Origin: an uncultured delta proteobacterium
Lineage (GTDB): Bacteria > Myxococcota_A > Polyangia > Polyangiales > Polyangiaceae
NCBI GenBank assembly: GCA_903870415.1
Contig: CAIQDA010000046.1
Span: 1-37,729 of the forward strand
Length of the DNA stretch: 37,729 bases
Direction of reading: 5' to 3'
Shown: positions 4,787 through 36,917 of the stretch, piece after piece
How the letters are laid out: each line of letters starts with the position of its first letter
Position numbering within the stretch: position 1 is the first letter of the stretch
Notes under the pieces: model-generated
The model's input: the letters and a program-made list of their open reading frames with translations, nothing else
The model's database searches: none
What the model was told of the DNA's origin: nothing
Program-made: the position numbers and the translations under genes

Positions 4787-5313
4787 AAGTCTTTTCCCTA
4801 CACCTGTGACGACGTTCAGGCGAGTAAACGGTTCCCTGGAAATCACCGAGCGAACGGCCGTGCATCCTGCACGTGAAATCTTCTGGACACGGGTGTCGGG
4901 GGTGGCCGGGCGTTGTCCGGAATTTCCGGCGCGTGCGTCAAACGTCACGAACCCATGCATCACACACACAACCACCGAAACACCTTCGCTCTACACGCAA
5001 AATAGCCCCATGATTTTAGCTAGTTAGAACGTTATTTGGTTTTCAGCGTTGTCCCCTGTGACAGGCCGGTGATAGCCCTTCTTTCGTTGGGAGCGATGAC
5101 GCGGCTCGGTCCAAATCGAGCGGCCCTCTCCTCACTATTTTCTTTTGCTCGCGTGCTTTTTTCCTGACCCCCAGAATCATGTTGGGGCCTGACTGCGACG
5201 CTATGCGTCAATACCGCACTCCGTCGCGCCTCTCGTCTGTCCGCGGATTCAAGCACCGCTCTTTCGGGGGTTTTCCACAGCCTGTGGATAACCCGTGGAT
5301 TCGTTGTCCCCCT
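4787..5313 (+). other. dnaA upstream region, possible replication-origin DNA
   Basis: These 527 bases carry no gene. They hold the promoters of the divergent barrel gene and dnaA. A conspicuous A+T-rich segment lies at about 4999-5045 (ATGATTTTAGCTAGTTAG and flanks), in a genome of about two thirds G+C. A second T-rich stretch lies near 5140-5164. DnaA boxes follow at 5271-5291. A perfect inverted repeat CCGGAA-T-TTCCGG (4917-4929), a smaller TTCC-CT-GGAA (4832-4841) and one TGCA-N3-TGCA site (4861-4871) lie on the barrel-gene side. It could serve as oriC, but only two good DnaA boxes are visible, so autoregulation of dnaA is an equal explanation. Confidence 0.5.
5271..5302. promoter_or_regulatory. 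Pair of inverted DnaA boxes upstream of dnaA
   Basis: TTTTCCACA (5271-5279, plus strand) and TGTGGATAA (5283-5291, the complement of the consensus TTATCCACA) face each other across three bases. A degraded third copy, CGTGGATTC, follows at 5294-5302. They lie 12-43 bases before the dnaA ATG. DnaA boxes at this position are known in many bacteria as autoregulatory sites or origin elements. Confidence 0.8.
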
Positions 5314-6726
5314 ATGCATCACGCCCCCTCCCTTCCTGAGCCCCCCGCCGCGTGGTCCGACGCCATTGCGCGTCTCCGCGGTCGCACGCCCGGAACGTTC
5401 GACGCCTGGTTTGGCGGCGTGCAGCTCGACGACTTCACGGACGGCGTTCTTTCGCTTCGTGCGCGTGACGCCTGGGTTCAGTCCTGGGTGACCACCCACT
5501 TCCTTCCGACGCTCGTGTCGTCGCTGTCGGAGCTCACCGGTCTTTCCGTGGTTCCGCGCTGGACGGTCGGCACCGTCGATCGGCCGATCGCGCCGCCCGA
5601 AGCCGCTCCCGATGTGAGCCTGGTCCGTGCGACGACGTTGCCGCCTTCTCCGCCGCCGGCCCCTTTTGCCGCCGCCGCCGCCGCCGCCGCGCCGGAGTCA
5701 TTTGCGGAACCGCAGTTTCGCCAGTCGTTTGGCGACTTCGTCGTGGGCCCCTCGAACCAGCTCGCGCATGCGGCGTGCCTTGCGGTCGCAGGCGACGTGG
5801 GCACGCGCCACAACCCGCTCTTCATTTGCGGCGGCACCGGCCTTGGCAAGACGCACTTGCTCGGCGCTGTCGGCAACCGCGTTCGCGAAATGCGCCCACA
5901 AGCGCGCGTCGTCTACGTGTCCGCCGAAGCCTTCATGAACCAGTTCATCGAAGCGCTTCAAGCGAACGCGATGGCGGCATTTCGCGCACGCTACCGCGAC
6001 CGTTGCGACGTGCTGCTGTTGGACGACGTGCAGTTTTTGGCAGGCAAAACGCAGACGCAGGAAGAGTTCTTCCACGTCTTCAATGCGCTGCACCAAGCGG
6101 GCAAGCAGATTGTCCTCACGAGCGACAAGTACCCGCAGCAGCTCGACCGCATGGAGGAGCGACTCGTCTCGCGCTTCCATTGGGGCCTCATCGCCGACGT
6201 TCAAGCGCCGGAGCTTGAAACGCGCATCGCCATCGTGCGGCGCAAGGCACGCCTCGAAAACCTTGTCATCGACGACACGGTCGCGCTCGCCATCGCGCAG
6301 GGCGTTCGGTCGAACGTTCGTGAGCTCGAGGGGCTCCTTGTGCGCCTGGCCGCGAAGGCGTCGCTGCTTCATCGTTCCATCGACCTCGACTTCGTCAAGC
6401 AGGAGCTCGCGCTCACCGGGTCCTCACGGCCAATGGAAGCGGGCATCGACGACGTGCAACGTCTCGTGGGGCACCACTTTCGCGTGACGCACACCGAGCT
6501 CGTGGGCAAGGAGCGTCATCGGCGCATCGCCCTCGCTCGCCACGTCGCCATGTACCTGTGCAAGCACCAGCTTCGCTGCAGTTACCCCGAGATTGGGCGC
6601 GCATTCGGTGGCCGCGATCACACCACCGTGATGAGTGGCGTGCGTCGCATCGACGAGCTGCGTGAGAACGACGCGGAGGTGCGGGCCCACATCGAGGCGC
6701 TGCGCCGAAAACTCGGCGACGAGTAG
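5314..6726 (+). CDS. dnaA: Chromosomal replication initiator DnaA
   Basis: 470 aa AAA+ ATPase that binds DnaA boxes and opens oriC. Domain I is residues 1-85. It is followed by a short Pro/Ala-rich domain II with an eight-alanine run. The AAA+ module carries Walker A GGTGLGKT (about 173-180), Walker B LLLDDVQF (about 233), the sensor I region VLTSDKYP, the arginine-finger region ERLVSRFHWG and sensor II NVRELEG. Domain IV ends with the helix-turn-helix signature YPEIGRAFGGRDHTTVMSGV. I chose the ATG at 5314 because it starts domain I; the open frame upstream runs through the DnaA boxes. dnaN is not adjacent. A 19-bp tandem repeat starts within the last codons. Confidence 0.97.
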   Translation: MHHAPSLPEPPAAWSDAIARLRGRTPGTFDAWFGGVQLDDFTDGVLSLRARDAWVQSWVTTHFLPTLVSSLSELTGLSVVPRWTVGTVDRPIAPPEAAPDVSLVRATTLPPSPPPAPFAAAAAAAAPESFAEPQFRQSFGDFVVGPSNQLAHAACLAVAGDVGTRHNPLFICGGTGLGKTHLLGAVGNRVREMRPQARVVYVSAEAFMNQFIEALQANAMAAFRARYRDRCDVLLLDDVQFLAGKTQTQEEFFHVFNALHQAGKQIVLTSDKYPQQLDRMEERLVSRFHWGLIADVQAPELETRIAIVRRKARLENLVIDDTVALAIAQGVRSNVRELEGLLVRLAAKASLLHRSIDLDFVKQELALTGSSRPMEAGIDDVQRLVGHHFRVTHTELVGKERHRRIALARHVAMYLCKHQLRCSYPEIGRAFGGRDHTTVMSGVRRIDELRENDAEVRAHIEALRRKLGDE

Positions 6727-6790: not shown

Positions 6791-9700
6791 TTACGCGCGC
6801 AGGTCGATGACGAGAACGGTGACGTCGTCTGCGAGTTCGTCTCGCGCGGCGTAGGTCTTCACAGCCTCGCCAAGGTCGTCGGCGAGCTCTTGCGCCGAAC
6901 CCCTGTGCGCCTTCACGAACGCTTCGATGCGCTCGTGGCCGAAGGAACCGATCGGCCCCTCTTGCTCGAAGAGACCGTCGGTGAAGATCACGAGGCGGGC
7001 GCCGACGGGAAGCATCTGCCGCTTCATGGTGAAGGTCGCGCCGAGCATCATCGCGAGAAATGGACCCGGCTGGTAAATCTCCACGAGGTCGGGCCCCGTG
7101 AGCAGAAAAAGTTCTGGCGCCGCGGCGTTCGCGACGCGGAGCTCCCAACCGCCATTCGTCATGCGGACGAGGTCGAAGCACACCGCGGTGGAGCGCAACT
7201 CAAGGTCCGGGAAGTTCGCCGCGAGCACGTCGTTCAACGAAGCGACGAGTGCGTGCGGCCACTCTTGCTGCCACTTGATTGCCTCGTACTCGGTCTTGAG
7301 AACCATCGTCCGAAGCGCCGCCTGCACACCGTGGCCCGTCGTGTCGGCCATGAGGAAACGAAAGTGCCCTTCGGAAAGTTCGAAGGCATCGACCAAGTCG
7401 CCGCCAACAAATGAAGCGGGGAGCGACTTCAGGCCGAGGCCGAGGCTGTCGGTCTCAAGGCCCATGCGAAGCGCGATGGCCTGAAAACGGGCTGCCTCTT
7501 CGATGTCCGCATGAAGCATGCGGTCTTTGACCTCGACCGCATGGATTGCTGCGCGCAGCTCGACGGTGCGCTCGTCCACCCGGGACTCAAGCTCGCGCGC
7601 GCGTCGATGAAGGCCTCGAATCCGCGCGCGGGCCGCAGCCCAACTGCCAACGACCGCCGCGGCCGCAAAGAAACCCCAAACGATGCGACGCTCAAACCAC
7701 CGCGGCTCGACGACGATGTCGAGAAGGGACGACGCCTCACCGCACGCGCCGTCGATGGAACACGCGCGCAGAAGAAATCGGTAGTGACCCGGTCGAAGGT
7801 CCGTGTAGTTTGCATCCCTCTTTCGCCCGTCGTCGATCCACTCGCTGTCGAGCCCCTCGAGGCGGTGGGCGAAGGTGACAGCTTCGGGCGCGGCGTAGTC
7901 GAAGGCCGTGAAGCCGAGCGACAGGTCGTGGCGGCCGGACGTAAACCGAATCGAACCGCGTGCATCCTGCACAAGCCTGTCGAGCGTGACGTCTTCAAGA
8001 CGGGTGACGGGAGGCTCCGAGGAGCGGGTGACCTTGCCCGGCTCGATGCGCGTGAGGCCGTGCGTCGTCCCGAACCAAACCGCCCCGAACGGGTCCACGA
8101 AAACACTCGGGTCTCCCGCGTTCGACTCCAACGTGCGAAACCCGTCCGCAAGACCAAACGCGCGTGCGGGAACGACGCTCAGTGACCCGCGCGCAAAGGC
8201 CTCGAGATCCGTCCTCATCAGGCGCAGGACGCCGCGGTTCGTCGCCACCCACACCGTGCCCGCGGGCTGCTCCACCGTGGCGTAGATTTGCTCGTCGAGG
8301 AGACCTGCGCGAGCGTCGATGAGCGTGTACGCGCCTCCGTGCCGCCACACGATGCCCGACGAGGTTCCGAGCCACTCGTCACCGTTCGCGTCGACACGAC
8401 GATGAAGGACCGTCGCGTCGTTCGGAATCGGCAAGGCCACGCGCTCGGCCTTCGCATCGGTCACATGAAAGAACCCGGAGCGCGTTCCAACGAGCACGCC
8501 ATCGGCTGCGCGTTGCACGAAGAAGACAACGAGGCCCGGTGAAATCACCTCGGGAAACATCGTCTTAAACGAGGCCCCCTCCCGGTGCATGACGCCGCTC
8601 CCATGCGTACCAAGCCAGTCGGGCGAACCGTCGGCACCAAGCACAAGCGAGCGCACGCGGAGCTCGTCCGTACCCTCGAGCGACGTGACCGCCCCGTGCT
8701 TGCTCGCCGGCACCACGAGAACCCCGGCCTCCCGGGACATGACGTAAACCGTGCCGCGATCGTTTTCCGCGAACCCGTAGATGGTGCGCGCCATGATGCG
8801 TGCATCCTGCACAAACGTGTTTCCCTCTTTCCGAAAGAGGCCGCCGCCCTCGGTGCCCACGAGGAACTCACCGGAGCGCGTTCCGAACACCGCGCGCACG
8901 TCGGGGGTCATAAGCCCGTTCACGGCCCCGAAGGTCACCGCCGGGCCTGAAAACGCCCGCTGAAGTCCACCACCGGACGTGCCGATCCACAGGCCGCCGC
9001 GGTCGTCGTCGAAGAGCGCGCGCACGTGGTCGTCTGCCATGCCATCGCGCGTCGTGAAGCGAGCGACAGCCCGCCCCGACAAGCGCACAAGGCCGCCTCC
9101 GTCTGTCCCGATCCAAAGCGTCCCCTGCCCGTCTTCGATGAACGACGTGACGGGTTCCGGCGGCATTCCCTCAAGGGCACCGACGACGATTCGCTGCGCG
9201 CCAAGGCGCGTAAACTGGCCCCGACCACCCACGACCACGTCGCCATCCTGCAACACCGCGAGCGCACGCACGTCGCGAAAAGGCATACCGACTTGCGCCG
9301 TGATGTCGCGCACGACCGCGCCCTCGACGGCGAAGAGCCCATTGGGCGTGCCCACGAAGACCTGCCCGCCCGAGAGCGCCACGGCCGACACCTGCTGGTC
9401 GGCGAGTCCGGGCAGCACGAGTTTCGTGCCCTGTCCGTTTCGAACGCGAAAGAGGCCGCCGTCCGTGCCCACGAACACGTCATCGCCCGCGAAGGCGATG
9501 GCCGTCACGCCTGTGCTGCGTGAAGGATTGGCCTCGAGAGGCACCGGCTCAAGGTTTCCGCCAACGAAGCGATGTAGTCCGCCCGTCGTTCCGACCCAGA
9601 GCGTTCCTTTCGCATCGACACCGAGTGCGAGAATATTTGTAGACTGCAGGTTTCTCTGGTTGCGTCGATCGAACGTCGTGAGCTTCACGCCATCGAACCG

Positions 9701-9919
9701 CACAAGCCCGCCCTCGGTGGCGAGCCAGAGGTAACCGTCCGGCGTGCGCGCAATGGCCAGCACCGAGGTCTGCGGCAACCCGTCGGCCTGGGCCCACTGG
9801 CGCGTCGCATACTGATCGAACGAGCGCGTCGCGTCGACCGCTTGAGCCTGCGACGCGACCACGAGGAACGCCGCGACCCAAGAACCTCGCCGACGTTGGT
9901 TGCGCCCCTGCCCTTGCAC
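6791..9919 (-). CDS. Two-component-type propeller sensor with SpoIIE/PP2C phosphatase output
   Basis: About 1042 aa. A signal or anchor segment (SWVAAFLVVASQAQA) comes first. Next are many propeller repeats of the Reg_prop type (residues about 40-650), with recurring LWIGTDGGGLVRL and VWVATNRGVLRL forms. A Y_Y_Y domain follows (about 660-720, HRLEGLDSEWIDDG...LRPGHYRFLLRA), then a membrane helix (about 743-762), a short coiled coil, and a SpoIIE-like phosphatase domain (about 830-1042; GGDLVDAF, ADTTGHG, FTDGLFE, DELADDVTVLVI). It probably senses a periplasmic ligand and dephosphorylates a cytoplasmic target such as an anti-sigma antagonist. The start is uncertain: I prefer GTG at 9919, because an upstream start beyond 9987 would run into the next gene. 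Four TGCA-N3-TRCA sites lie inside it. Confidence 0.85.
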   Translation of the reverse strand: MQGQGRNQRRRGSWVAAFLVVASQAQAVDATRSFDQYATRQWAQADGLPQTSVLAIARTPDGYLWLATEGGLVRFDGVKLTTFDRRNQRNLQSTNILALGVDAKGTLWVGTTGGLHRFVGGNLEPVPLEANPSRSTGVTAIAFAGDDVFVGTDGGLFRVRNGQGTKLVLPGLADQQVSAVALSGGQVFVGTPNGLFAVEGAVVRDITAQVGMPFRDVRALAVLQDGDVVVGGRGQFTRLGAQRIVVGALEGMPPEPVTSFIEDGQGTLWIGTDGGGLVRLSGRAVARFTTRDGMADDHVRALFDDDRGGLWIGTSGGGLQRAFSGPAVTFGAVNGLMTPDVRAVFGTRSGEFLVGTEGGGLFRKEGNTFVQDARIMARTIYGFAENDRGTVYVMSREAGVLVVPASKHGAVTSLEGTDELRVRSLVLGADGSPDWLGTHGSGVMHREGASFKTMFPEVISPGLVVFFVQRAADGVLVGTRSGFFHVTDAKAERVALPIPNDATVLHRRVDANGDEWLGTSSGIVWRHGGAYTLIDARAGLLDEQIYATVEQPAGTVWVATNRGVLRLMRTDLEAFARGSLSVVPARAFGLADGFRTLESNAGDPSVFVDPFGAVWFGTTHGLTRIEPGKVTRSSEPPVTRLEDVTLDRLVQDARGSIRFTSGRHDLSLGFTAFDYAAPEAVTFAHRLEGLDSEWIDDGRKRDANYTDLRPGHYRFLLRACSIDGACGEASSLLDIVVEPRWFERRIVWGFFAAAAVVGSWAAARARIRGLHRRARELESRVDERTVELRAAIHAVEVKDRMLHADIEEAARFQAIALRMGLETDSLGLGLKSLPASFVGGDLVDAFELSEGHFRFLMADTTGHGVQAALRTMVLKTEYEAIKWQQEWPHALVASLNDVLAANFPDLELRSTAVCFDLVRMTNGGWELRVANAAAPELFLLTGPDLVEIYQPGPFLAMMLGATFTMKRQMLPVGARLVIFTDGLFEQEGPIGSFGHERIEAFVKAHRGSAQELADDLGEAVKTYAARDELADDVTVLVIDLRA

Positions 9920-9987
9920 GGCCTCACACCGTAACAGAATCCCTCGCCCGCCACGTTCAAGTTCACGGGCGTGGCGAAGGTCGCGAT

Positions 9988-11127
9988 TCAGGGAACGATG
10001 GGCCGATTCGATGGAGGCGAACCCGCGGCGATGCGCTTCTCCGAGTCCATGGGCGCGATGCCCAAGCCCAGTCGCTCGCCTTGCCAACCCGACTGCTCGA
10101 CGATGTGTTGCGACCACGGCTGGTTTTGCAGCACCCAACGAACACTCTTGGTGATGGACTCCTCAAGCGACTTCTGCGGGCGCCAACCGAGCTCGTCGCG
10201 AGCCGCGCTCGACACCGTGCGATACGCCGCGTCGTGCCCAGGGCGATCGTCGACGTCGGTCACGAGCTGCACGTAGTCCGTGTATCCTGCAAGTTGCATC
10301 GCCTCGTTCTTCGCCGCGGGCTTCTCGGCTTCGACCGCTGCGAGCACCTTCGCGACCACCTCGCGGCTGCTCAGAGGTTCACCACGACCAAGCTCATACA
10401 CGGCACCGTAACGGCCGCGCTTCGCCGCAGCGAGGAGGCCCGAGCAATAGTCGTCGACGAACAGCCAATCGCGCCGCGCCGAACCGTCTCCGTAGAGCGG
10501 AATCGTCGTGCCCGTGAGCGCGCGGGCAACCACGAGCGGAAGGAGCCGCTCCGGCGATTGCCAAGGACCCATGAGGTTCGTCGAACGGACGACAAGGTAA
10601 GGCAGTTTATAGGTCCGGTAATACGAGAGGATAATGCTCTCCGCCGCGAGGGCCGAAGCTGCGCCCGGCGACGTCGGTCCGAGGGCTTCGCCATTCGCGT
10701 CCACGGGACCGGCCGCACGCATGGTCGATGCATGAACAAACGAGAAGCGCGCCAGCTTGTCGTCGTCGTACGTCGAGAGGACTTGCCTGCATTGCTGAGC
10801 AACCTCGAACGCGCCGCCCACGTTCGTCTTCATGAAGATTCGCGCTTCGTCGATGCTGCGGTCGACGCTCGTTTCCCCGGCGAGATGCACAACCTTCGTG
10901 GGTTTGGCGGTACGCAGGATGGCCCGCAGCGCACGCCCGTCGGCCGTGTCGACCTCGAAGAACGAGAAGCGCGGGTCCTTCTCGCACGCCGCGATGTTTT
11001 CCCACGACCCCGTGCGCACGAACTTGTCGACGACGACGACCCGCGCGGCCGTGTTCTTGAGCAGATACCGAACGAAGTTCGATCCAACGAAGCCTGCACC
11101 ACCGGTGACGAAGTATGTCTCGCTCAT
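9988..11127 (-). CDS. dTDP-glucose 4,6-dehydratase homologue, catalytic residues lost
   Basis: 379 aa extended-SDR protein of the RmlB/RfbB type. The NAD-binding motif TGGAGFVGSN is at the N-terminus. The fold is well conserved (VVHLAGETSVDRSI; GPWQSPERLLPLVVARAL; YGDGSARRDWLFVDDY). The active site is not: where RmlB has S-T-D-E it has STMR (Thr135-Met136-Arg137), and the YxxxK dyad is replaced by Gly155...Ala159 (SPGAASALAAES). It is therefore unlikely to catalyse 4,6-dehydration and may bind nucleotide sugar or NAD, or scaffold a partner. The ATG at 11127 is preceded by GGAG at six bases. It is divergent from the glycosyltransferase gene, suggesting a glycan-modification locus. Confidence 0.85.
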   Translation of the reverse strand: MSETYFVTGGAGFVGSNFVRYLLKNTAARVVVVDKFVRTGSWENIAACEKDPRFSFFEVDTADGRALRAILRTAKPTKVVHLAGETSVDRSIDEARIFMKTNVGGAFEVAQQCRQVLSTYDDDKLARFSFVHASTMRAAGPVDANGEALGPTSPGAASALAAESIILSYYRTYKLPYLVVRSTNLMGPWQSPERLLPLVVARALTGTTIPLYGDGSARRDWLFVDDYCSGLLAAAKRGRYGAVYELGRGEPLSSREVVAKVLAAVEAEKPAAKNEAMQLAGYTDYVQLVTDVDDRPGHDAAYRTVSSAARDELGWRPQKSLEESITKSVRWVLQNQPWSQHIVEQSGWQGERLGLGIAPMDSEKRIAAGSPPSNRPIVP

Positions 11128-11220
11128 GATCACTCCGCGGATCATCGTACCGGACTCGCGTCGCGGAATGGAACTTCAGCGCCCTCGACGGACCGTGAAA
11201 AGCGTGGTGCGGTACGCGAA

Positions 11221-12717
11221 ATGGATGCGCTCTCCGTCCTCTTCCTTGCGGCCCTCAGCGATCTTTCGAGCGATGCGGCGTTCTACCGCGTGTCTCAGCC
11301 CGCGCGCCATCTGGCGGAGCGTCCCGACGTTCGCTCGGTTCACGTGACCTCAAACCTCGATCCCAACATCGACGCGCTCATCGAGGCCGCCGACGTCATC
11401 ATTCTCCACGAGCTTGCGGACCCGGATCTCTTTCCGAAGGTCACGGCGGCACGCGAGCGCGGCTCACTCGTCATCTACGATTTGGCCCACGACATCACGT
11501 CGCTCCCGACGCTGCATCCGCTGCAAAGCTACTGGGTCGAAGAGCAGGCGCAGCGGCACGCGTTCAAACTCGCGAAGCTCGCCACGATGTTCACGGCCTC
11601 GAATGTTCGCCTGCTTTCGCATTGGGCCGCCATCAACCCACGCGGGAACCTCGTGGCCAACGCGTGGCCCTTCGAGGTTCACGCCACCCGCGAGCCCTCG
11701 CCGCGTTTTCACATCGCGATGGTCGTCGATCTGCATGAATACGCAGGCGCGCGCGACGTCATCGGATCGCTGCTCGCGTGGATGAGCGTCACGAAGCACG
11801 CCACCCTCGAGGTGCTCGCGCCCGAACTCGTCCATCAAGCCTTCGCGCGCGGACCTGCCGATCGCATGGTCCTTTCGACCGCACGTGAGCAGAGCGATCG
11901 CCTCGCGGCGTTTCGTCGCGCCGACGTCGCCTTGCTCGCCCTCGAGAATTCAAACAACGCGATGCGCCTCGCCGACGTGCGCTGGCTTGAGGCTGCGGCG
12001 TCCGGTGCCGTCGTGCTTGCCCCGAACCTCGGAGCTTACGCCGAGCGCATCACGCCGGGCGCGAACGGCATTCTTTACAACGAAGCCGACGAGGCCATCC
12101 CGGCCCTCGATCGCCTGTCGACGGACCCGGACCTCCTCGCCCATGTGCGCGCGACAGCCGCATTGCAAGTGACCGACGAGCGACAGCTCCGCGCAAGCCT
12201 CGACGAGCAAGTGGCCTACTGGCGCAAGTTCGTGAAACGCGCGCCGGACGCAAGCCGCGCCGAGCTTCCGCCCCGTCTTCCAGGAACGACGCTGCCGCAC
12301 GAGCACGAACTTTTCGAAGGCTTGCTCTACGCCGGGCCGCTCAACGATCGCGCGATCGCTCGCAAGCATTTCGAGCGCGCCGCCGAGCTCCTTCCGACGA
12401 GCCCGGAGCCCTACCTTCTCTTGGCTCGCGTGGTGCCGAACCCCATCGAGGTCGTCCTCAAGGCTGTCCAGCTCGCGCCCAAAAGCCTTCGCGCCAACTT
12501 GCTTCTTGGGGACGCGCTCTCCGACGCGGGCCAGCACCAGGACGCGCTCGCCATCTACCAGCGCACGGCGGAGTTCTACCCGGCTTGGGAGCTGCCTTAC
12601 CTGCGCGTGGCCATGCTCCTCGAAGGCATGGGCATGAAGGCCGAATCGGAGCAGTTCGTGCACATGGCCGCTGGCGTAGCGACGTTCCTCGAAGAAGCTA
12701 TCGAGGCCCGCGGCTAG
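11221..12717 (+). CDS. Glycosyltransferase with C-terminal TPR domain
   Basis: 498 aa, no signal peptide. Residues 1-340 look like a GT-B-fold glycosyltransferase: an N-terminal half with DVIILHELADPDLFPK, and a C-terminal donor-binding part with RLADVRWLEAAASGAVVLAPNLGAYAERI and NGILYNEADEAI, typical of GT1/GT4-like enzymes. Residues about 365-480 carry TPR-like helices (AIARKHFERAAELLPTSPEPYLLLARV; LGDALSDAGQHQDALAIYQRTAEFYPAW). Sugar donor and acceptor cannot be read from sequence. The methyltransferase follows after five bases, so the two form an operon. The promoter must lie in the 93-base gap shared with the divergent RmlB-like gene. Confidence 0.8.
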   Translation: MDALSVLFLAALSDLSSDAAFYRVSQPARHLAERPDVRSVHVTSNLDPNIDALIEAADVIILHELADPDLFPKVTAARERGSLVIYDLAHDITSLPTLHPLQSYWVEEQAQRHAFKLAKLATMFTASNVRLLSHWAAINPRGNLVANAWPFEVHATREPSPRFHIAMVVDLHEYAGARDVIGSLLAWMSVTKHATLEVLAPELVHQAFARGPADRMVLSTAREQSDRLAAFRRADVALLALENSNNAMRLADVRWLEAAASGAVVLAPNLGAYAERITPGANGILYNEADEAIPALDRLSTDPDLLAHVRATAALQVTDERQLRASLDEQVAYWRKFVKRAPDASRAELPPRLPGTTLPHEHELFEGLLYAGPLNDRAIARKHFERAAELLPTSPEPYLLLARVVPNPIEVVLKAVQLAPKSLRANLLLGDALSDAGQHQDALAIYQRTAEFYPAWELPYLRVAMLLEGMGMKAESEQFVHMAAGVATFLEEAIEARG

Positions 12718-20011: not shown

Positions 20012-20121
20012 GAGGCGGGGGGCTTAGCAGCCAGAAGCGAGAAGCGTGGGGAAGTTTTGACCAGAGGGCCCGTACGATGCGAGACTGGCCCCGGGGGACC
20101 TCATCCCCGAGGGCCGGACAG

Positions 20122-21174
20122 ATGGCGGAAGGTAAGTTGCTCGTCGGCGTCGACATCGGCGCGAGCTCGATCAAAGTCGTGCAGCTCAAAGAGAGCAGGC
20201 GCGCACTTTCGATCGTTCGTTTTGGCCACGTGGACTTGCCACGCGACACAATCATCGACGGCCACGTGATGAATCCATCCGTCGTCACCGAGGCGCTTCA
20301 GCACCTCTTCGCATCGTCGAAGATCAGCCAAAAAGAGGTCGCCATCGGCGTCTACGGTCAGTCGGTCATCGTGCGAAAAATCGCGATGCCGCTCATGACA
20401 AAAGACGAGCTCGCCGAGTCGATCGGCTGGGAGGCTGAGCAGCACATTCCGTTCGACATCAAGCAGATGTCGTACGATTACGAGGTGCTCGCGCGGTTCC
20501 CGGAAGAGCAGCGCATGGACGTGCTTCTCGTGGCGGCAAAGCGCGATGAAGTGAGCGACGTGGCGACCATCGTGCGCGACGCGAAGCTCAAGCCCCTCGT
20601 CGTCGACATCAACGCCTTCGCGATGCAGAACGCCCTCGAAAAATCCCTCGGGTCTCTTCCGGTCGATCGCACCATCGCCGTCGTCGACGTCGGAGCTGCG
20701 AACACGACGATCAACGTGCTCTCCAAAGGCACGTCGGCGTTCACGCGCGAGATTCAAACGGCGGGCTCGTCGATCACCGAAGAGGTGCGCAAGCGCTGCA
20801 ACCTCGGTTGGGAGCAGTCGGAAGCCTACAAGTGCGGCGCGCAAGGCGGCCTTGTCCCGCAAGACGTGAACGCGGCCATCGACCTCGCATGCGGAAACCT
20901 CGCGGGCGAAGTGCATCGCTCGCTTGATTTTTACCTGGCAACGAGCGGCGAGGCAGACATCACGCGCATCTACGTGTGCGGTGGCGGAGCAGCCCTCGCT
21001 CCGCTCTGCCGCGCCATCGAAGAGAAGTCCCGCAGACCGGTCGAGATCTTCGATCCGGTGTTGGCATTCACCGTCGACCCCAAGGTCGATGAAGCCGCGT
21101 TGCGCGCTCGCGGGCCGCAGTTCGCCGTTGCGCTCGGGCTTTCGCTTCGTCGCATCCGCGAGGTGCGCGCATGA
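20122..21174 (+). CDS. pilM: Type IV pilus assembly protein PilM
   Basis: 350 aa actin-like ATPase-fold protein on the cytoplasmic face of the inner membrane that binds the N-terminus of PilN. Residues LLVGVDIGASSIKVVQL form the phosphate-1 loop. FDIKQMSYDYEVL, DVLLVAAKR and VDVGAANTTINVL (phosphate 2) follow, with ITRIYVCGGGAALAPL (adenosine loop) near the C-terminus. I chose the ATG at 20122 with GAGGG about ten bases upstream; the longer frame from 20077 lacks family similarity. A small hairpin GGGGA/TCCCC (20094-20108) sits before the ribosome-binding site. First gene of the pilMNOPQ operon; its stop overlaps pilN (ATGA). Confidence 0.97.
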   Translation: MAEGKLLVGVDIGASSIKVVQLKESRRALSIVRFGHVDLPRDTIIDGHVMNPSVVTEALQHLFASSKISQKEVAIGVYGQSVIVRKIAMPLMTKDELAESIGWEAEQHIPFDIKQMSYDYEVLARFPEEQRMDVLLVAAKRDEVSDVATIVRDAKLKPLVVDINAFAMQNALEKSLGSLPVDRTIAVVDVGAANTTINVLSKGTSAFTREIQTAGSSITEEVRKRCNLGWEQSEAYKCGAQGGLVPQDVNAAIDLACGNLAGEVHRSLDFYLATSGEADITRIYVCGGGAALAPLCRAIEEKSRRPVEIFDPVLAFTVDPKVDEAALRARGPQFAVALGLSLRRIREVRA

Positions 21175-21806
21175 TTCGCGTCAACCTACTTCCGCAAAAA
21201 CAACAAGCGTCCTCGAGCGACGGCAACTCGCTCCAGACCGCGGTGCTCGTGGTCTTCATGCTTGAGCTCGCGGCACTCTTTTTCGTTCAGCGAGCGAAGG
21301 AGCGGGAGCTCGAAGGTGTGCGCGCCGAGTCCGCAGCCGTGCGCGGTCAGATCGATCAGATCGGCCGCGAGATCGCCAACCACAAAGCGATCCAAGAGCA
21401 GCTCAAGGCCCTCCGCGACCGCGAGACCGCCATCGAGAAGCTTCAGACGGGACGCATCGGCCCCACCGCCGTGCTGCTCGAACTCTCGCGCGTTCTCACC
21501 GCCGACAAAGGACCATCGGTCGACCGTGCACGCCTCGAGCAACTGCGCCGCGACTCGCCGCAACTCGTGCCGAACCCCTCGTGGGATTCGCGCCGCCTTT
21601 GGCTCACGGCCTACACCGAGAAAGATCGCGTCACCACGATCGCCGGCTTTGCACGCGATGGCGAAGACGTGTCGGAGTTGCTCCGCCGACTCTCGCTCAG
21701 CCAGTACTTCGAGGACGTGAAGTTGCTGCCCGCTGAGAAGGTTCTCGATCCGCAAACACGGGAACAGCTCGTGCGTTTCCAGTTCAGCGCGAAGGTGAAG
21801 TTCTGA
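21171..21806 (+). CDS. pilN: Type IV pilus assembly protein PilN
   Basis: 211 aa bitopic inner-membrane protein. The cytoplasmic tail begins MIRVNLLPQKQQ, the conserved INLLP-type motif that PilM binds. A transmembrane helix (TAVLVVFMLELAALFFV, about 24-40) and a periplasmic coiled coil (REIANHKAIQEQLKALRDRETAIEKL) come next, then the ferredoxin-like domain that pairs with PilO. Translation is coupled to both neighbours. Confidence 0.95.
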   Translation: MIRVNLLPQKQQASSSDGNSLQTAVLVVFMLELAALFFVQRAKERELEGVRAESAAVRGQIDQIGREIANHKAIQEQLKALRDRETAIEKLQTGRIGPTAVLLELSRVLTADKGPSVDRARLEQLRRDSPQLVPNPSWDSRRLWLTAYTEKDRVTTIAGFARDGEDVSELLRRLSLSQYFEDVKLLPAEKVLDPQTREQLVRFQFSAKVKF

Positions 21807-22405
21807 TGGCCGCCAAGAAGCCCGATGGTCTCTTTGCGTCGCTCACACCGGGCGCGCGAGGTGGACTCGTTGTCCTCTCGATGCTCCTCGTCAGTGCGCT
21901 GTATTACGTCGTCTATTTTCAGGAAACTGAGACGAAGATTTCGAAAGAGCAAGACGTGAAGACCGGACTCTTGGCGGACCTCGAAAGCCAGAAGCGCGCT
22001 CAGGCGACGTTCTTGAGCGACCGCGACGAGCTCGTCCTCCGCCAGCAACGTCAACGCGAGCTGAACAAGATTCTTCCCGAGGCCACGGAGGTGGCGCCAT
22101 TCCTTTCCTCGCTTCAGCAGGTTTCGAATCTGTCGGGCGTCGAGCTGTCCGCTTGGCAGCCCCTCGAAGAGCGCGTGGAGTCGTTCTACGCAAAGACCCC
22201 CATGCGCCTCGAACTTCGCGGCCGCTTTCATCAGATCGCCAAGTTCGTGCACGAAGTCGGACGCCTCGATCGCATCATCAACGTCGAGAACATCGAGCTC
22301 TTCGATCCGAAGGACACGGGGACCGACATGGTTCTTCGCGCACGATGCCTCGCGACCGCGCTGCACCAAGTGCCCGCTCCAAAGGCACCGGGAGCCACCC
22401 CATGA
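21806..22405 (+). CDS. pilO: Type IV pilus assembly protein PilO
   Basis: 199 aa inner-membrane protein, PilN's partner in the alignment complex. Short cytoplasmic N-terminus, one membrane helix (GLVVLSMLLVSALYYVVYF), a periplasmic coiled coil and a C-terminal ferredoxin-like domain (RLELRGRFHQIAKFVHEVGRLDRIINVENIEL). Its start overlaps the pilN stop by one base (TGATG) and its stop overlaps pilP (ATGA). Confidence 0.95.
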   Translation: MAAKKPDGLFASLTPGARGGLVVLSMLLVSALYYVVYFQETETKISKEQDVKTGLLADLESQKRAQATFLSDRDELVLRQQRQRELNKILPEATEVAPFLSSLQQVSNLSGVELSAWQPLEERVESFYAKTPMRLELRGRFHQIAKFVHEVGRLDRIINVENIELFDPKDTGTDMVLRARCLATALHQVPAPKAPGATP

Positions 22406-23001
22406 TGCGCGCGATCCTCGCCGTTTTCGCCGCAGCGGCCCTCTCCGGTTGCGGCAACGACAAACCCGTTGCGGGTGCCGACTGGGTCACCGCAAGCGGT
22501 AAGCAGGTGCCAGCTCCGCCACCGGCGCCTGTGGTTCCGAAAACGGCTGCTCCCGCGAACATCGCGTCCATCGAGTTCAACGAAACAGACTTCGCTGAAG
22601 GCGAACGGAGTCGCGACCCATTCCGCGGATTCTCGTCCGGTGGAGCCGTCAACACGCGCGCCGTCATCAACCAGCGGAACGTACTCGTTGCAGACTACAC
22701 GCTTGACGATCTGAAGCTCATCGCCATCGTTCAGGGCGGCGAGCAACCCATGGCCATGCTCATGGACCCGAAGAACAAAGGCACCACCGTGCGCCGCGGC
22801 GACTTCATCGGACGCTCGGAAATCGCGCGCACCGGCGGCGTCGGCTCGACCGAATACCAAGTCAATTGGCGCGTCGATCGCATTCGCCCTGGCGATGTGG
22901 TCTTCGTCCGCGAAGACCCCGCTCAGCCCACGGCAACCCCCGTGACGCGCGTTCTCACCATTCGTCCGGAGTCCGAAGAGCTCCCCGCCTCGTCCAAATG
23001 A
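22402..23001 (+). CDS. pilP: Type IV pilus lipoprotein PilP
   Basis: 199 aa inner-membrane lipoprotein that links PilNO to the secretin. Lipoprotein signal MRAILAVFAAAALSGC with lipobox LSGC. A Pro-rich linker (PAPPPAPVVPKTAAP) precedes the SRDPFRGF motif typical of PilP and the beta-sandwich domain (LDDLKLIAIVQGGEQPMAMLMDP; VRRGDFIG). Two ATG codons in a row (22402, 22405); the first makes the four-base overlap with pilO. A TGCA-N3-TACA site lies at 22689-22699. Confidence 0.95.
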   Translation: MMRAILAVFAAAALSGCGNDKPVAGADWVTASGKQVPAPPPAPVVPKTAAPANIASIEFNETDFAEGERSRDPFRGFSSGGAVNTRAVINQRNVLVADYTLDDLKLIAIVQGGEQPMAMLMDPKNKGTTVRRGDFIGRSEIARTGGVGSTEYQVNWRVDRIRPGDVVFVREDPAQPTATPVTRVLTIRPESEELPASSK

Positions 23002-24557
23002 CCAGTGAGCCCAGGATGATGACATCCCCTCTCCGTTCCGCCTTCGCATCGTCGGCGGCTTTTGTTCTCGCGCTTCTCGCGGTGCCGCCTCTCGCGCGTG
23101 CTGCCGAGCCCGCACGTCGCCACACGGTCACCGTGGCACGCGACAAGGCTCCGCAAATCGTGGTGCACGACGACGACGTCGAGACCACCGCCGAGCACGT
23201 GAGCCCGTCGGCGCAATCGTCTGTCCTCGCGCAGGTTGCCGCAAAGGGTGGCGTGCAACCGGGCCGTCGCATCGACCTCGACCTGAAGGATGCGGACATT
23301 CACAACATCCTGCGTCTGCTCGCGGACGTGGGAAAGGTGAACATCATCACGACCGACGAGGTGAGCGGAACGGTGACGATTCGCTTGCGAAACGTGCCGT
23401 GGGAGCAAGCACTCGACGTCGTCTTGCAGGCGAAGTCGCTCGGGATGGTTCGTCAGGGGAACCTCATCCGCGTGGCGCCGTCCGCAACGCTTCAGAAGGA
23501 GCGCGAACTTCGCCTCGCCGCTCAGAAGCAAGAGTTCGAGCTCGCGCCGCTCGAGACGCGCCTCATTCCGGTGAGCTACGCGCAAGCGAACGAGCTGCAA
23601 AACCGCGCGAAGGAACTTCTCTCGCCGCGCGGCTCCATCGCCGTCGACGATCGAACGAACGTCCTCGTCACGCGCGACATCGCAGGCAACCTCGATCACA
23701 TCGAGGAGCTCGTTCACTCGCTCGACACGCAGACCCCGCAGGTGCTCGTCGAGGCTCGCATCGTCGAGGCCACGAGCCGTTACTTGCGCGACATGGGCAT
23801 TCAATGGGGCGGCGACGCGTCCATGACGGCCACGCAGGGAAATCCCACCGGAGTCGCATTCCCGTCGAACCTCACGCTCGCCGGCGGCGCATCGGACTCG
23901 AACACCGTCACCGCGGGCTTGAACCCCATTCAGAGTCAGGTCACGAACCCGAACTTCGCGGTGAACCTTCCCGCCACCGTGGGTCAGGGCCAGGGCGGCG
24001 CCATCGGCTTCAACCTCGGGTCCATCGACAACAACTTCAACCTCGGCATTCGCCTTTCGGCCGCCGAGGCCAGTGGCATGGTTCGCATCGTGTCGAGTCC
24101 TCGCGTGCTCACGCTCGACAACAGCGAAGCGCGCATCAACCAAGGCACGCTCATCCCGTTCAGCCAGGTCAGTGCGCAAGGCGTTCAGACGACGTTTCAG
24201 GAAGCGAAATTGCAGCTTCTCGTGAAGCCTCACGTCACCGCCGACGGCGCCATTGCGATGCACGTGAAGATCAACCGCGACGAGCCCGACTTCAACCAAA
24301 CGTCCGCCCGCGGCGACCCGACGATCTTGAAGCGCGAAGCCGAAACGGACCTGCTCGTGGCCGACGGTCACACGGCGGTCATCGGCGGAATCTACACGCG
24401 CAACACGGGACGCAACCTCGACCAAGTTCCGTTCTTCGGCGACATCCCCGTCCTCGGCTGGCTCTTCCAACGTCGACGCGCAAGCGACACGCGCAACGAG
24501 CTCGTCATCTTCCTCACGCCTCGCATCGTCAATCGCGCCGAAGCTCTCGGACGCTGA
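22998..24557 (+). CDS. pilQ: Type IV pilus secretin PilQ (short form)
   Basis: 519 aa outer-membrane secretin. After the signal peptide (cleavage near PLARA-AEPARR) come an STN-like N0 domain (IDLDLKDADIHNILRLLADVGKVNII), an N1 domain (AQANELQNRAKELLSPRGSIAVDDRTNVLVTRD) and the secretin core, with PQVLVEARIVEA, SSPRVLTLDNSEARI, and the C-terminal VPFFGDIPVLGWLFQ and NELVIFLTPRIV. It is short: the N-terminal AMIN peptidoglycan-binding repeats common in myxobacterial and gammaproteobacterial PilQ are not visible. I chose the ATG at 22998 for its ATGA overlap with pilP; 23016 is an alternative. Last gene of the operon. Confidence 0.95.
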   Translation: MTSEPRMMTSPLRSAFASSAAFVLALLAVPPLARAAEPARRHTVTVARDKAPQIVVHDDDVETTAEHVSPSAQSSVLAQVAAKGGVQPGRRIDLDLKDADIHNILRLLADVGKVNIITTDEVSGTVTIRLRNVPWEQALDVVLQAKSLGMVRQGNLIRVAPSATLQKERELRLAAQKQEFELAPLETRLIPVSYAQANELQNRAKELLSPRGSIAVDDRTNVLVTRDIAGNLDHIEELVHSLDTQTPQVLVEARIVEATSRYLRDMGIQWGGDASMTATQGNPTGVAFPSNLTLAGGASDSNTVTAGLNPIQSQVTNPNFAVNLPATVGQGQGGAIGFNLGSIDNNFNLGIRLSAAEASGMVRIVSSPRVLTLDNSEARINQGTLIPFSQVSAQGVQTTFQEAKLQLLVKPHVTADGAIAMHVKINRDEPDFNQTSARGDPTILKREAETDLLVADGHTAVIGGIYTRNTGRNLDQVPFFGDIPVLGWLFQRRRASDTRNELVIFLTPRIVNRAEALGR

Positions 24558-31531: not shown

Positions 31532-32686
31532 TTAGGACGCGAGCGCCGCTTCGAGCTGACCTTCGAGGTCCGACTCCGACACGCGCTTGGCGAGCGACAG
31601 TTCGCGAAGGAGCAGCCCCTTCGCCTTGTCGAGCAGGTTTTGTTCGCCGAAGGAGAGGTTCTTTGAACCACGCAGCCGGTGCATGTCACGCATGACCTTG
31701 GCCACTTCGTGGAGCGACTTGCTCTTCACCATCTCTTGGTAGATGCGGAAGCGTCGCGACCAAGGCTCGACCTTCACGGCGACTTCTTTGCTGCGAATGG
31801 TGTCGAGGATCGCGTCGGCTTCGTCGGCCGTCATCACTTGGCGGAGTCCGAGCGCTTGCGCCGACCTCACCGGAACGATGACCTTCGAGCCGCCCTGAAC
31901 GAGGAGCACGTAGAACTCGGTCGAAGGACCGCCGCCGATGGCCTTTTGCTCGATGGCCACGACCTCGCCTACGCCGTGGCTCGGGTGCACGGCCAAGTCG
32001 TGAACCTTGAACGTCACAGGTTCGGGCTTGGCGGCAGCCGAGGACGACGACACGAGGCTTCGCAGCGTCGGCAGGCGCGAAACGGACTTGCGGCTTGGGG
32101 GCACCGCAGGAACGGACTTTCGCGACTTCTTCGCGACCGGCACCGACGCGAGCGCAGGCTTCGCGGACCTGCTCGGGGCAGGCGCGGGCAACTCCTTCGC
32201 GGGCTTCACCGCCGGAGCAACCTTCATCGGCTTCGCGGACATAGGCTTCGCGGACGGGACGGCCTTCGGGGCCTTCATAGGCTTCGCGGACGGGGCGGCC
32301 TTGGGAGCCTCCGCTTTCTTGGGCTTTCCAGCGACCTTCGCCGGTGCGGCCTTCACGGGCTTCGCCACGGCCTTGCTGGCTTTCGAGGTGCCCTTCGCAG
32401 GCGCCTTCGCGGGCTTCACAGCCTTCGCCGGCTTCGCAGCAGGCTTCACAGCCTTTGCGGGTTTCGCGGCAGGCTTCACAGCCTTTGCGGGTTTCGCGGC
32501 AGGCTTCGCAGCCTTTGCAGGTTTCGCGGCAGGCTTCACAGCCTTCGCGGGTTTCGCAGCTTTCTTCCCGGCTTTCGCGGGAGCCGCTTTGGACACGACT
32601 TTGCTCTTCGGCGTTTCCGCCTTGGCCTTGTCCTTCGCCTTCGAGCCCGCGCTCGCTGCGGACGCCTTCTTTTTTGCCGTCGCCAT
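31532..32686 (-). CDS. CarD/CdnL-type RNA-polymerase-binding regulator with H1-like N-terminal tail
   Basis: 384 aa. Residues about 225-384 are a full CarD/CdnL/TRCF-type module: the RNA-polymerase-beta-binding Tudor-like part (FKVHDLAVHPSHGVGEVVAIEQKAI...VLLVQGGSKVIVPV) and the helical C-terminal part (PWSRRFRIYQEMVKSKSLHEVAKVMRDMHRL...SFGEQNLLDKAKGLLLRELSLAK). CdnL alone is about 164 aa and stabilises open complexes. Here 220 residues of Lys/Ala/Pro-rich, histone-H1-like sequence precede it, with a decapeptide repeat of the AKPAAKPAKAV type at residues 43-92. In Myxococcus CarD the basic DNA-binding tail is C-terminal, so this is the opposite order. Confidence 0.9.
   Translation of the reverse strand: MATAKKKASAASAGSKAKDKAKAETPKSKVVSKAAPAKAGKKAAKPAKAVKPAAKPAKAAKPAAKPAKAVKPAAKPAKAVKPAAKPAKAVKPAKAPAKGTSKASKAVAKPVKAAPAKVAGKPKKAEAPKAAPSAKPMKAPKAVPSAKPMSAKPMKVAPAVKPAKELPAPAPSRSAKPALASVPVAKKSRKSVPAVPPSRKSVSRLPTLRSLVSSSSAAAKPEPVTFKVHDLAVHPSHGVGEVVAIEQKAIGGGPSTEFYVLLVQGGSKVIVPVRSAQALGLRQVMTADEADAILDTIRSKEVAVKVEPWSRRFRIYQEMVKSKSLHEVAKVMRDMHRLRGSKNLSFGEQNLLDKAKGLLLRELSLAKRVSESDLEGQLEAALAS
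32411..32560. repeat. Five 30-bp coding repeats in the CarD-like tail
   Basis: Units of 30 bases start at 32411, 32441, 32471, 32501 and 32531. The units at 32441 and 32471 are identical; the others differ at one to five bases. Each encodes ten residues of the Lys-Pro-Ala repeat. The near identity at DNA level suggests recent expansion by slippage or recombination, so copy number may vary between strains. Confidence 0.95.
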
Positions 32687-35990: not shown

Positions 35991-36917
35991 TCACCGCGGC
36001 ATGAGCCACGCGAGAATCCACTCTTCCGCGAAGAGCCACTCGAGAAACGCGACGCAAAGAAACGGTCCGAACGCGATGCGCGCGTGGCGAAGACCTTCTT
36101 CGGGCTCGTCCGCCAGCGGGTCGAGACGCAGAGCCTCTTTCGCTTCTTCGTCTCCCGCCGCCGCCATCGCACGCAGCTCCTCACGCTCGCGCACGACCGC
36201 CTCGGGCTCCGCGATTCGTCCTGCGGCCACAAATGTGCATAGTGCAACGATTGTTCCCTGGACCGCCGCAAGCACGAGGGCGAAGAGCGCGCCAATCCAG
36301 CCGAACCAAAGGCCGATGGCCGCGAGCAATTTGGCGTCGCCGAGGCCCATTCCAGGGAATCCGCGCAGCCGCTCGTAGAGCCAGATAAACGGCACGTAGA
36401 CGACGGCGTAGCCAGCCACCGCACCGATCGCCGCCTCCTGCCACGGCACGGCACGCAGCGGCAGCGAGAGCACCCCAATCGCCGCAAGCGTGAGCACGCC
36501 GCCGTCGGGCAGGTAGAGGTAGTCGAGGTCGATGAACGTGAGCACCACGGCGGTGAGCGCGGCGGCGAAGGTGAGCGCCGCAAGCGCGAGATGCGCGGGC
36601 GTGACGCCGCCTTCGGTCGCGCGGGTAAACGCCAGGTACGCCATGGCCCCGCCGAGCGCCTCGACCACCGGAACACGCACCGGAATCGGCGCGCCGCAGC
36701 ACGATGCTCGCCCGCGAAGAAGAATCCACGCGAGCACAGGCACGTTCTTCCACGCTGGAATGGGCGCTCCGCAGGCGTCGCACCGTGACCCGGGCACGAC
36801 GACGCTCTGGCCTTCCGGAATGCGTGCAATGGCCACCGTCGCGAAGCTTCCCCAGGCAAGACCGAAGAGCACCGCGACGACACGAAGAAACGGGAGCGGC
36901 AAGTCGTCGAGCGGCAT
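35991..36917 (-). CDS. pilD: Prepilin peptidase (PilD/GspO type)
   Basis: 308 aa multi-pass inner-membrane aspartyl protease that cleaves and N-methylates type IV prepilins and type II pseudopilins. The N-terminal methylase-associated domain has a Cys cluster (SRCDACGAPIPAWKNVPVLAW...ASCCGAPI). The third cysteine is displaced relative to the usual CxxC...CxxC pattern. The catalytic aspartates are in FIDLDYLYLPD (Asp130/132/138) and GMGLGDAKLL (Asp194). A cytoplasmic insert of about 50 acidic residues sits near the C-terminus (EAVVREREELRAMAAAGDEEAKEAL), unusual for the family. It lies 11 kb from pilMNOPQ, on the other strand. Confidence 0.92.
   Translation of the reverse strand: MPLDDLPLPFLRVVAVLFGLAWGSFATVAIARIPEGQSVVVPGSRCDACGAPIPAWKNVPVLAWILLRGRASCCGAPIPVRVPVVEALGGAMAYLAFTRATEGGVTPAHLALAALTFAAALTAVVLTFIDLDYLYLPDGGVLTLAAIGVLSLPLRAVPWQEAAIGAVAGYAVVYVPFIWLYERLRGFPGMGLGDAKLLAAIGLWFGWIGALFALVLAAVQGTIVALCTFVAAGRIAEPEAVVREREELRAMAAAGDEEAKEALRLDPLADEPEEGLRHARIAFGPFLCVAFLEWLFAEEWILAWLMPR

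Follow-up and report, generated by a model that had tools for sequence, protein, structure and literature searches.

The window, by which we mean the whole 37,729-nucleotide stretch of DNA that was analyzed, contains a minus-strand gene for a protein of the dTDP-glucose 4,6-dehydratase (RmlB) type and, reading away from it, a plus-strand gene for a GT4-like glycosyltransferase-TPR (GT-TPR) protein (Table 1). The RmlB-like gene starts at the ATG at position 11127, has a second in-frame ATG at 11145, and contains no internal stop codons. Among NCBIfam models, the RmlB type, TIGR01181, is the best fit for its product; the match is far above chance (272.1 bits, E 5.5e-81) and lies under the curated score of 365.1 bits. 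Pfam assigns PF16363 and PF01370, with an E of 2.6e-52 for GDP_Man_Dehyd, and the closest solved structures by sequence, identified using phmmer, are the dTDP-glucose 4,6-dehydratases of E. coli and Salmonella (1bxk, 239 bits; 1g1a, 206 bits). The residue register between the window protein and RmlB was taken from the phmmer alignments to these two structures.

The genus sample comprises three genomes, two of which are metagenome assemblies: that of the window (G000; 4.69 Mb in 511 contigs), G001 and G002. A codon comparison of this trio gave 0.10-0.12 non-synonymous versus 0.49-0.69 synonymous differences per site in the minus-strand frame. The reverse pattern was obtained in both shifted frames and in two of the three antisense frames; the remaining antisense frame is interrupted by 9-11 stops. 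The codon-level change thus favors the minus-strand frame. A plus-strand open reading frame over the gene (10081-12717) is an antisense extension of the GT-TPR gene, whose ATG is at 11221, and antisense coding of the locus is opposed both by the codon-level change and by the minus-strand homology.

Table 1. Positions of the genes, motifs and residues discussed in the text
Feature	Coordinates	Strand	Evidence or remark
Two-component-type propeller, Y_Y_Y and SpoIIE phosphatase protein	6794-9922	-	downstream of the RmlB-like gene, same strand
RmlB-like gene, presumed pseudoenzyme, 379 aa	9988..11127, stop included	-	family matches; orthologs in 3/3 genus genomes
C-terminal tail, residues 357-379	9991..10059	-	18/23 identical in trio; pLDDT <50
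R219, S. enterica Arg231 equivalent	10471..10473	-	1bxk/1g1a register; kept in trio
N184, S. enterica Asn196 equivalent	10576..10578	-	1bxk/1g1a register; kept in trio
G155..A159 in place of YxxxK	10651..10665	-	alignment; A..A in both orthologs
STMR (S134-T135-M136-R137) in place of RmlB STDE	10717..10728	-	alignment; SSLR in both orthologs
Retained GGAGFVG (glycine-rich NAD motif), residues 9-15	11083..11103	-	sequence and alignment to RmlB-like rows
Spacer separating the ATGs of the two divergent genes	11128..11220	.	93 bp in window, 93 bp in G001, 91 bp in G002
GT4-like glycosyltransferase-TPR gene, 498 aa	11221..12717	+	PF13524 and TPR matches; paired with the RmlB-like gene in 3/3 genus genomes
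GT residues 165-176 (IAMVVDLHEYAG) in place of GWGGSxGHxxD	11713..11748	+	motif in 10/11 homologs
GT residues 246-258 (NAMRLADVRWLEA) in place of FNRxRSDVK	11956..11994	+	motif in 9/11 homologs

In a promoter and terminator scan of positions 9850-11300, nothing matched between the two genes; a single promoter-like match lies within the RmlB-like gene, and a single terminator-like one falls shortly after the start of the GT-TPR gene. Approximately 17 bases just upstream of the GT-TPR ATG (11204-11220, plus strand) are identical in the three genomes; this segment could belong to upstream coding sequence, serve as a ribosome site or have a regulatory function.

Elsewhere in the window, dnaA lies at 5179-6726 on the plus strand (TIGR00362, 468 bits), roughly 3.3 kb from the stop codon of the RmlB-like gene. 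Type IV pilus genes occupy 20077-24557 (plus strand) and include PilM, a secretin, and two small open reading frames, putatively PilN and PilO, at the places expected for these; a prepilin peptidase of the set is found further on (35991-36917, minus strand). CarD-domain proteins are encoded at 31532-32686 of the window (minus strand) and at L044:6469-7872 (plus strand). The CarD protein of G002 has a long repeat rich in Lys, Pro, Ala and Val before its CarD part, and its gene stands beside the GT-TPR gene in that genome. No matches to RmlA or RmlD were found in the window or at loci L043 and L044.

Catalytic and ligand-contact residues

The initial annotation had proposed that the RmlB motif STDE is changed to STMR and that the Tyr and Lys of YxxxK are replaced by Gly155 and Ala159, and the alignments to 1bxk and 1g1a bear this out. 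T135, M136 and R137 align with Thr133, Asp134 and Glu135 of Salmonella RmlB, and G155 and A159 align with Tyr167 and Lys171; the Salmonella residues at these positions are described in the available text of three papers as catalytic or in contact with the substrate (PMC12136496, PMC9415975, PMC8987622). At the two catalytic motifs, both orthologs from the genus have SSLRAAG and SPAAASALAAES. We compared these proteins with 30 RmlB-like rows (27 loci of the family plus L002, L008 and L042), which define 94 near-invariant columns, and found both the Asp-Glu and the Tyr and Lys in 30/30 rows. The window protein retains 59 of the 94 columns, 57 of which are retained in all three orthologs. Those retained include the glycine motif, D34, D60, E85, D89-R90-S91, N102, H132, S134, N184, R219 and D294-R295-G297-H298-D299, where G297 is Ala in G002. 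Those lost, given as the RmlB residue with the position in the window protein, include Y38, A39, A84, S86, H87, D136, E137, V138, Y155, K159, N185, Y186, R301 and D305. Residue 254, the equivalent of Asn266, another dTDP contact of RmlB, is Ser in the window protein and Asn in G001 and G002. In a further alignment (A3), D136, E137, Y155, K159, N184, R219 and N254 are each present in all 43 rows outside the trio (42 viral-contig loci plus L042), a count biased toward intact proteins because the fetch patterns contained part of YxxxK or of a motif next to it.

The replacements themselves are shared to a considerable extent, R137, A138, E163, L185 and M186 being common to the trio. Positions at which an RmlB-invariant residue has been replaced are identical in the trio in 22 of 33 cases, compared with 209 of 287 positions in the rest of the protein (Fisher p 0.54). 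The replaced positions are therefore as conserved as the remainder, indicating that the new state is being kept.

An AF2 model of the window protein, built from a 46-row alignment, has a pLDDT of 85.5 and a pTM of 0.86, and its top match by Foldseek and VIA-align is Salmonella RmlB 1keu (Z 44.5, rmsd 2.3, 345 residues aligned). Since the alignment is dominated by RmlBs and favors their fold, the model tests compatibility with that fold and is not a proof of it. With this qualification, the earlier claim that the fold and the NAD motif are kept stands, as GGAGFVG is present and the predicted fold matches 1keu. Residues 351-379 of the model have a pLDDT below 50. The tail formed by residues 357-379 has no counterpart in the RmlB ends compared, from which three rows that overrun or diverge there (L029, L032 and L037) were left out; it is a conserved, gained segment that is probably disordered.

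Asn196 and Arg231 of S. enterica RmlB touch a phosphoryl oxygen of dTDP-glucose, and the dyad Lys bonds the cofactor ribose, according to the available text of PMC9415975. Judged by the residues kept and lost, the nucleotide-phosphate side of the site looks preserved and the sugar-chemistry side looks erased. The window protein very probably carries out no dehydratase turnover. With its phosphate contacts still in place but no acid, base, Tyr or Lys left, we infer binding without conversion, and we lean slightly toward dTDP-sugar binding having been retained, although the Ser at the Asn266 equivalent of the window protein counts against it. Binding of NAD is doubtful: it may be weak or may not occur at all, since the equivalents of Lys159, Tyr38 and His87 have been lost, the dyad Lys and the cofactor-loop Tyr-Ala being among the losses. 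The retained residues would permit a role as a nucleotide-sugar sensor or as a scaffold.

If the cofactor side is emphasized instead, the protein could be a redox or NAD sensor that has nothing to do with sugars, namely an SDR-derived regulator of the NmrA or HSCARG kind, which would sense NAD(P)(H) with its Rossmann fold and control a partner. Such NAD(P)-sensing SDR regulators are known from the available text of PMC3793261, and the retention of the glycine motif, D34, D60, T101 and N102 would suit one. We nevertheless consider this reading unlikely. Neither the dyad Lys nor the cofactor-loop Tyr and Ala survive, in contrast to N184 and R219, which are contacts for the nucleotide sugar, and the conserved neighboring gene comes from a glycosyltransferase family with some dTDP-sugar neighbors. 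About as improbable is a site rebuilt with new residues (R137, E163 and H132, for example) for a reaction other than dehydration. The five replacements common to all three proteins would fit such an enzyme, and WbpM and PglF can do without the Tyr by itself, as reported in the available text of PMC8987622. In the window protein, however, both the dyad Lys and the acid/base pair are absent, and there is not a single Tyr or Lys within residues 149-168 of any of the three genus proteins, whereas all ten enzyme rows in Table 1 of that paper keep Yx3K or Mx3K and none lacks the Lys.

Orthologs, selection and distribution

A full-length ortholog is present in each of the three genus genomes, with 80-84% identity and the same catalytic losses. 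In a phylogenetic tree, the trio is a single clade (100/100) separate from the genus's intact RmlB; its branch measures 3.62 changes per site and its tips 0.02-0.15. The branch of L042, an intact distant row, is equally long at 3.58 changes per site, so branch length alone is no proof of functional loss.

The intact RmlB is a second gene in G000 (L002), with the motifs STDEVFG and YSATK and a TIGR01181 score of 459.4 bits, above the cut-off of 365.1. Its identity to the presumed pseudoenzyme is 30-34%. In both G000 and G002, rmlD immediately precedes it and an rmlA-like gene follows, the latter being cut by the contig end in G000; in G001, which is 83% complete, no intact RmlB was found among the matches listed. 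This arrangement of intact RmlB with rmlD and an rmlA-like gene suggests that the pathway is seemingly independent of the odd gene. It also bears on the idea that the window protein is an inactive subunit that forms a heterodimer with the intact RmlB and tunes it. Model helices 95-117 and 154-173, which by analogy with RmlB presumably form the dimer interface, are strongly conserved in the trio, and residues 77-114 contain no non-synonymous differences at all. This would be expected of a conserved contact surface, but the would-be partner is distant in sequence and encoded elsewhere, beside rmlD, and we regard a heterodimer as still somewhat less likely than the sensor of redox state or the rebuilt enzyme.

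For the three genome pairs, the dN/dS values of the gene are 0.136, 0.072 and 0.077 (0.072 for G000 versus G002); in two of the pairs dS exceeds 1.5 and is a rough value. The intact RmlB has a dN/dS of 0.148 for G000 versus G002. It is thus well supported by the sequence comparisons that the gene is under strong purifying selection, its catalytic set having been lost and remaining lost. This agrees with the initial annotation, which had argued against simple decay and had called for a look at orthologs: the three copies are full length and free of frameshifts, with dN/dS of 0.07-0.14, all have the same losses under purifying selection, and none has YxxxK. That the gene lost its function recently and is turning into a pseudogene, as the disappearance of four of four catalytic residues might suggest, is extremely improbable in view of this selection, the full-length copies in three species, the shared substitutions, and a constraint tighter than that on the GT-TPR neighbor.

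Searches of the family (108 genomes), order (183), class (317) and a phylum sample (377) revealed no ortholog outside the genus among the matches listed; E limits were 1e-60 for the order, 1e-85 for the class and 1e-78 for the phylum sample, and the best few candidates per genome were scored. Among those matches, a profile of the trio scores at least 840 bits within the genus versus at most 334 elsewhere, and the single-protein search of the family gave at least 702 bits versus at most 262. [ST]DE and YxxxK are intact in 46/46 of the RmlB-like genes examined outside the trio, which consist of 27 family loci, L002, L008 and L042, 8 new order loci (the other 10 of the 18 order loci had been counted already) and 8 phylum loci; seven further loci (L003-L005 and L009-L012), which are other or partial SDRs, stand outside this count. 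From viral contigs came L099-L102, four distant proteins in which STDE and YxxxK are present, and L103, an SDR that is more distant still. A plasmid search returned 1138 records, all below 60% identity.

The GT-TPR neighbor and a possible joint role

The motifs GWGGSxGHxxD and FNRxRSDVK, which we take to be donor-binding from their position and from knowledge of GT-B enzymes, are both absent from all three GT-TPR proteins of the genus. Among the homologs, L203, from outside the genus, deviates in both motifs and L202 in FNRxRSDVK. The homologs on which the comparison rests are at 23-26% identity, and one of the 11 (L110) comes from G001 itself. Of 39 columns invariant in these homologs, the window GT-TPR protein retains 17 and has lost 22; 20 of the latter are lost throughout the trio, 13 with an identical replacement. 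The protein is evolving faster than the presumed pseudoenzyme (dN/dS 0.20-0.33), and in a tree of the family the three proteins group together as a clade with a long branch. The GT-TPR neighbor is thus apparently a degenerate enzyme, possibly a pseudo-glycosyltransferase, a claim that we hold less firmly than the one made for the pseudoenzyme. A structure model of the protein (pLDDT 59) is too poor for claims, and its Foldseek list mixes TPR proteins with GT4-type enzymes. The single match from a viral scan with the protein is short and weak and was set aside.

GT-TPR proteins of this family are rare: they were found in 9/108 genomes of the bacterial family at E 1e-10, counting the trio, and in 9/377 genomes of the phylum sample at E 1e-30 with a profile of the homologs, counting two of the trio. 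Of three homologs whose domains were assigned, L113 and L116 have PF13524 and TPR, and L111 has PF13524 only. We searched 11 GT homolog loci for RmlA, RmlB and RmlD (L110-L116, L201, which spans only 3 kb, and L206-L208) and found rml genes near the homolog in three, with none seen in the other eight. At L111 and L112 (G032 and G033, of one genus), rmlD adjoins the glycosyltransferase gene and rmlA is close by, as family models agree; at L207 (G393, from another family of the phylum), an rmlA-like stretch adjoins it. The presence of rml genes at three of 11 loci ties the family loosely to dTDP-sugars.

Two partners had been suggested for the window protein by the initial annotation, and they fared differently. 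The glycosyltransferase is supported by its position, as the pair is found in all three genomes. The phosphatase receptor is not supported: in G002, a Ser/Thr kinase gene faces the RmlB-like gene where the receptor stands in the window, and the receptor's homolog is approximately 7.4 kb away. Adjacency was judged in the window and G002, the G001 contig ending first, and coupling with the SpoIIE phosphatase was rejected on this ground. A methyltransferase gene that follows the GT-TPR gene in the window is in the same place in G001 and not in G002.

Our preferred reading, in which our confidence is about even, is that the window protein is a genus-specific, RmlB-derived pseudoenzyme that binds a dTDP-sugar without converting it and serves as a sensor or scaffold together with the GT-TPR protein. 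The pseudoenzyme would bind the dTDP-sugar, possibly with NAD, and its ligand occupancy would be relayed to a protein partner, the likeliest being the divergent GT-TPR protein. That protein would read the occupied pseudoenzyme, perhaps through the conserved tail lying in its TPR groove, and together they would serve a surface-glycan step as a sensor or scaffold that responds to dTDP-sugars. For the partnership itself, which gene adjacency in all three genomes suggests, we see the chances as evenly balanced. TPR grooves commonly hold short peptides, and the tail is therefore a candidate docking peptide; tail-TPR docking is nonetheless a tentative and rather unlikely proposal. We would place at the same low level the broader conjecture that two inactive dTDP-sugar enzymes, a dehydratase and a glycosyltransferase, were recruited jointly, with the tail signaling into the TPR part to form a two-part sensor private to the genus.

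Should dTDP-sugars be bound, the protein would be well suited as a natural sensor and would allow a clean test of what the SDR fold does after catalysis is lost. Since its glycosyltransferase-like neighbor is apparently motif-less too, the locus is a possible case of the joint repurposing of two enzymes. It is also a warning, as naming by homology alone would label the window protein RmlB.

Comparison with known systems

Kinases and phosphatases include well-known pseudoenzymes. The class as such is known, and within the literature searched a parent of the RmlB type is apparently undescribed; no description of a conserved dead nucleotide-sugar dehydratase was found in the searchable literature, which leaves most subscription papers and bioRxiv out of reach. 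The window protein resembles RmlB/RffG (1keu, 1g1a, 1bxk; TIGR01181) in its predicted fold, glycine motif, D34/D60, N184/R219 and the ending ...GERLGL. It differs from them in lacking the Asp-Glu, Tyr and Lys, in falling under the TIGR01181 cut-off, and in having an extra conserved tail. The neighboring protein shares PF13524 and TPR with GT4-like glycosyltransferases that have TPR, and differs from these in missing GWGGSxGHxxD and FNRxRSDVK.

The dehydratases WbpM and PglF have, in the available text of PMC8987622, a Met for the Tyr and keep both Asp-Lys (TDK) and the dyad Lys (Mx3K). Replacement of the dyad Tyr is what the window protein has in common with them, but it has Met/Leu-Arg and no Lys, so that TDK and Mx3K, like Yx3K, are both absent from it. 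Among SDR-fold regulators, the available text of PMC3793261 describes NmrA and HSCARG, for which NAD(P) sensing is known, and MAT2B, which is related to RmlD and keeps YxxxK. The likeness to these three lies in a Rossmann protein with a regulatory rather than a metabolic role, a role that for the window protein is putative. Unlike MAT2B, it has lost the dyad, and its parent is RmlB rather than RmlD. None of WbpM, PglF, NmrA, HSCARG and MAT2B is an RmlB from which all four residues have gone.
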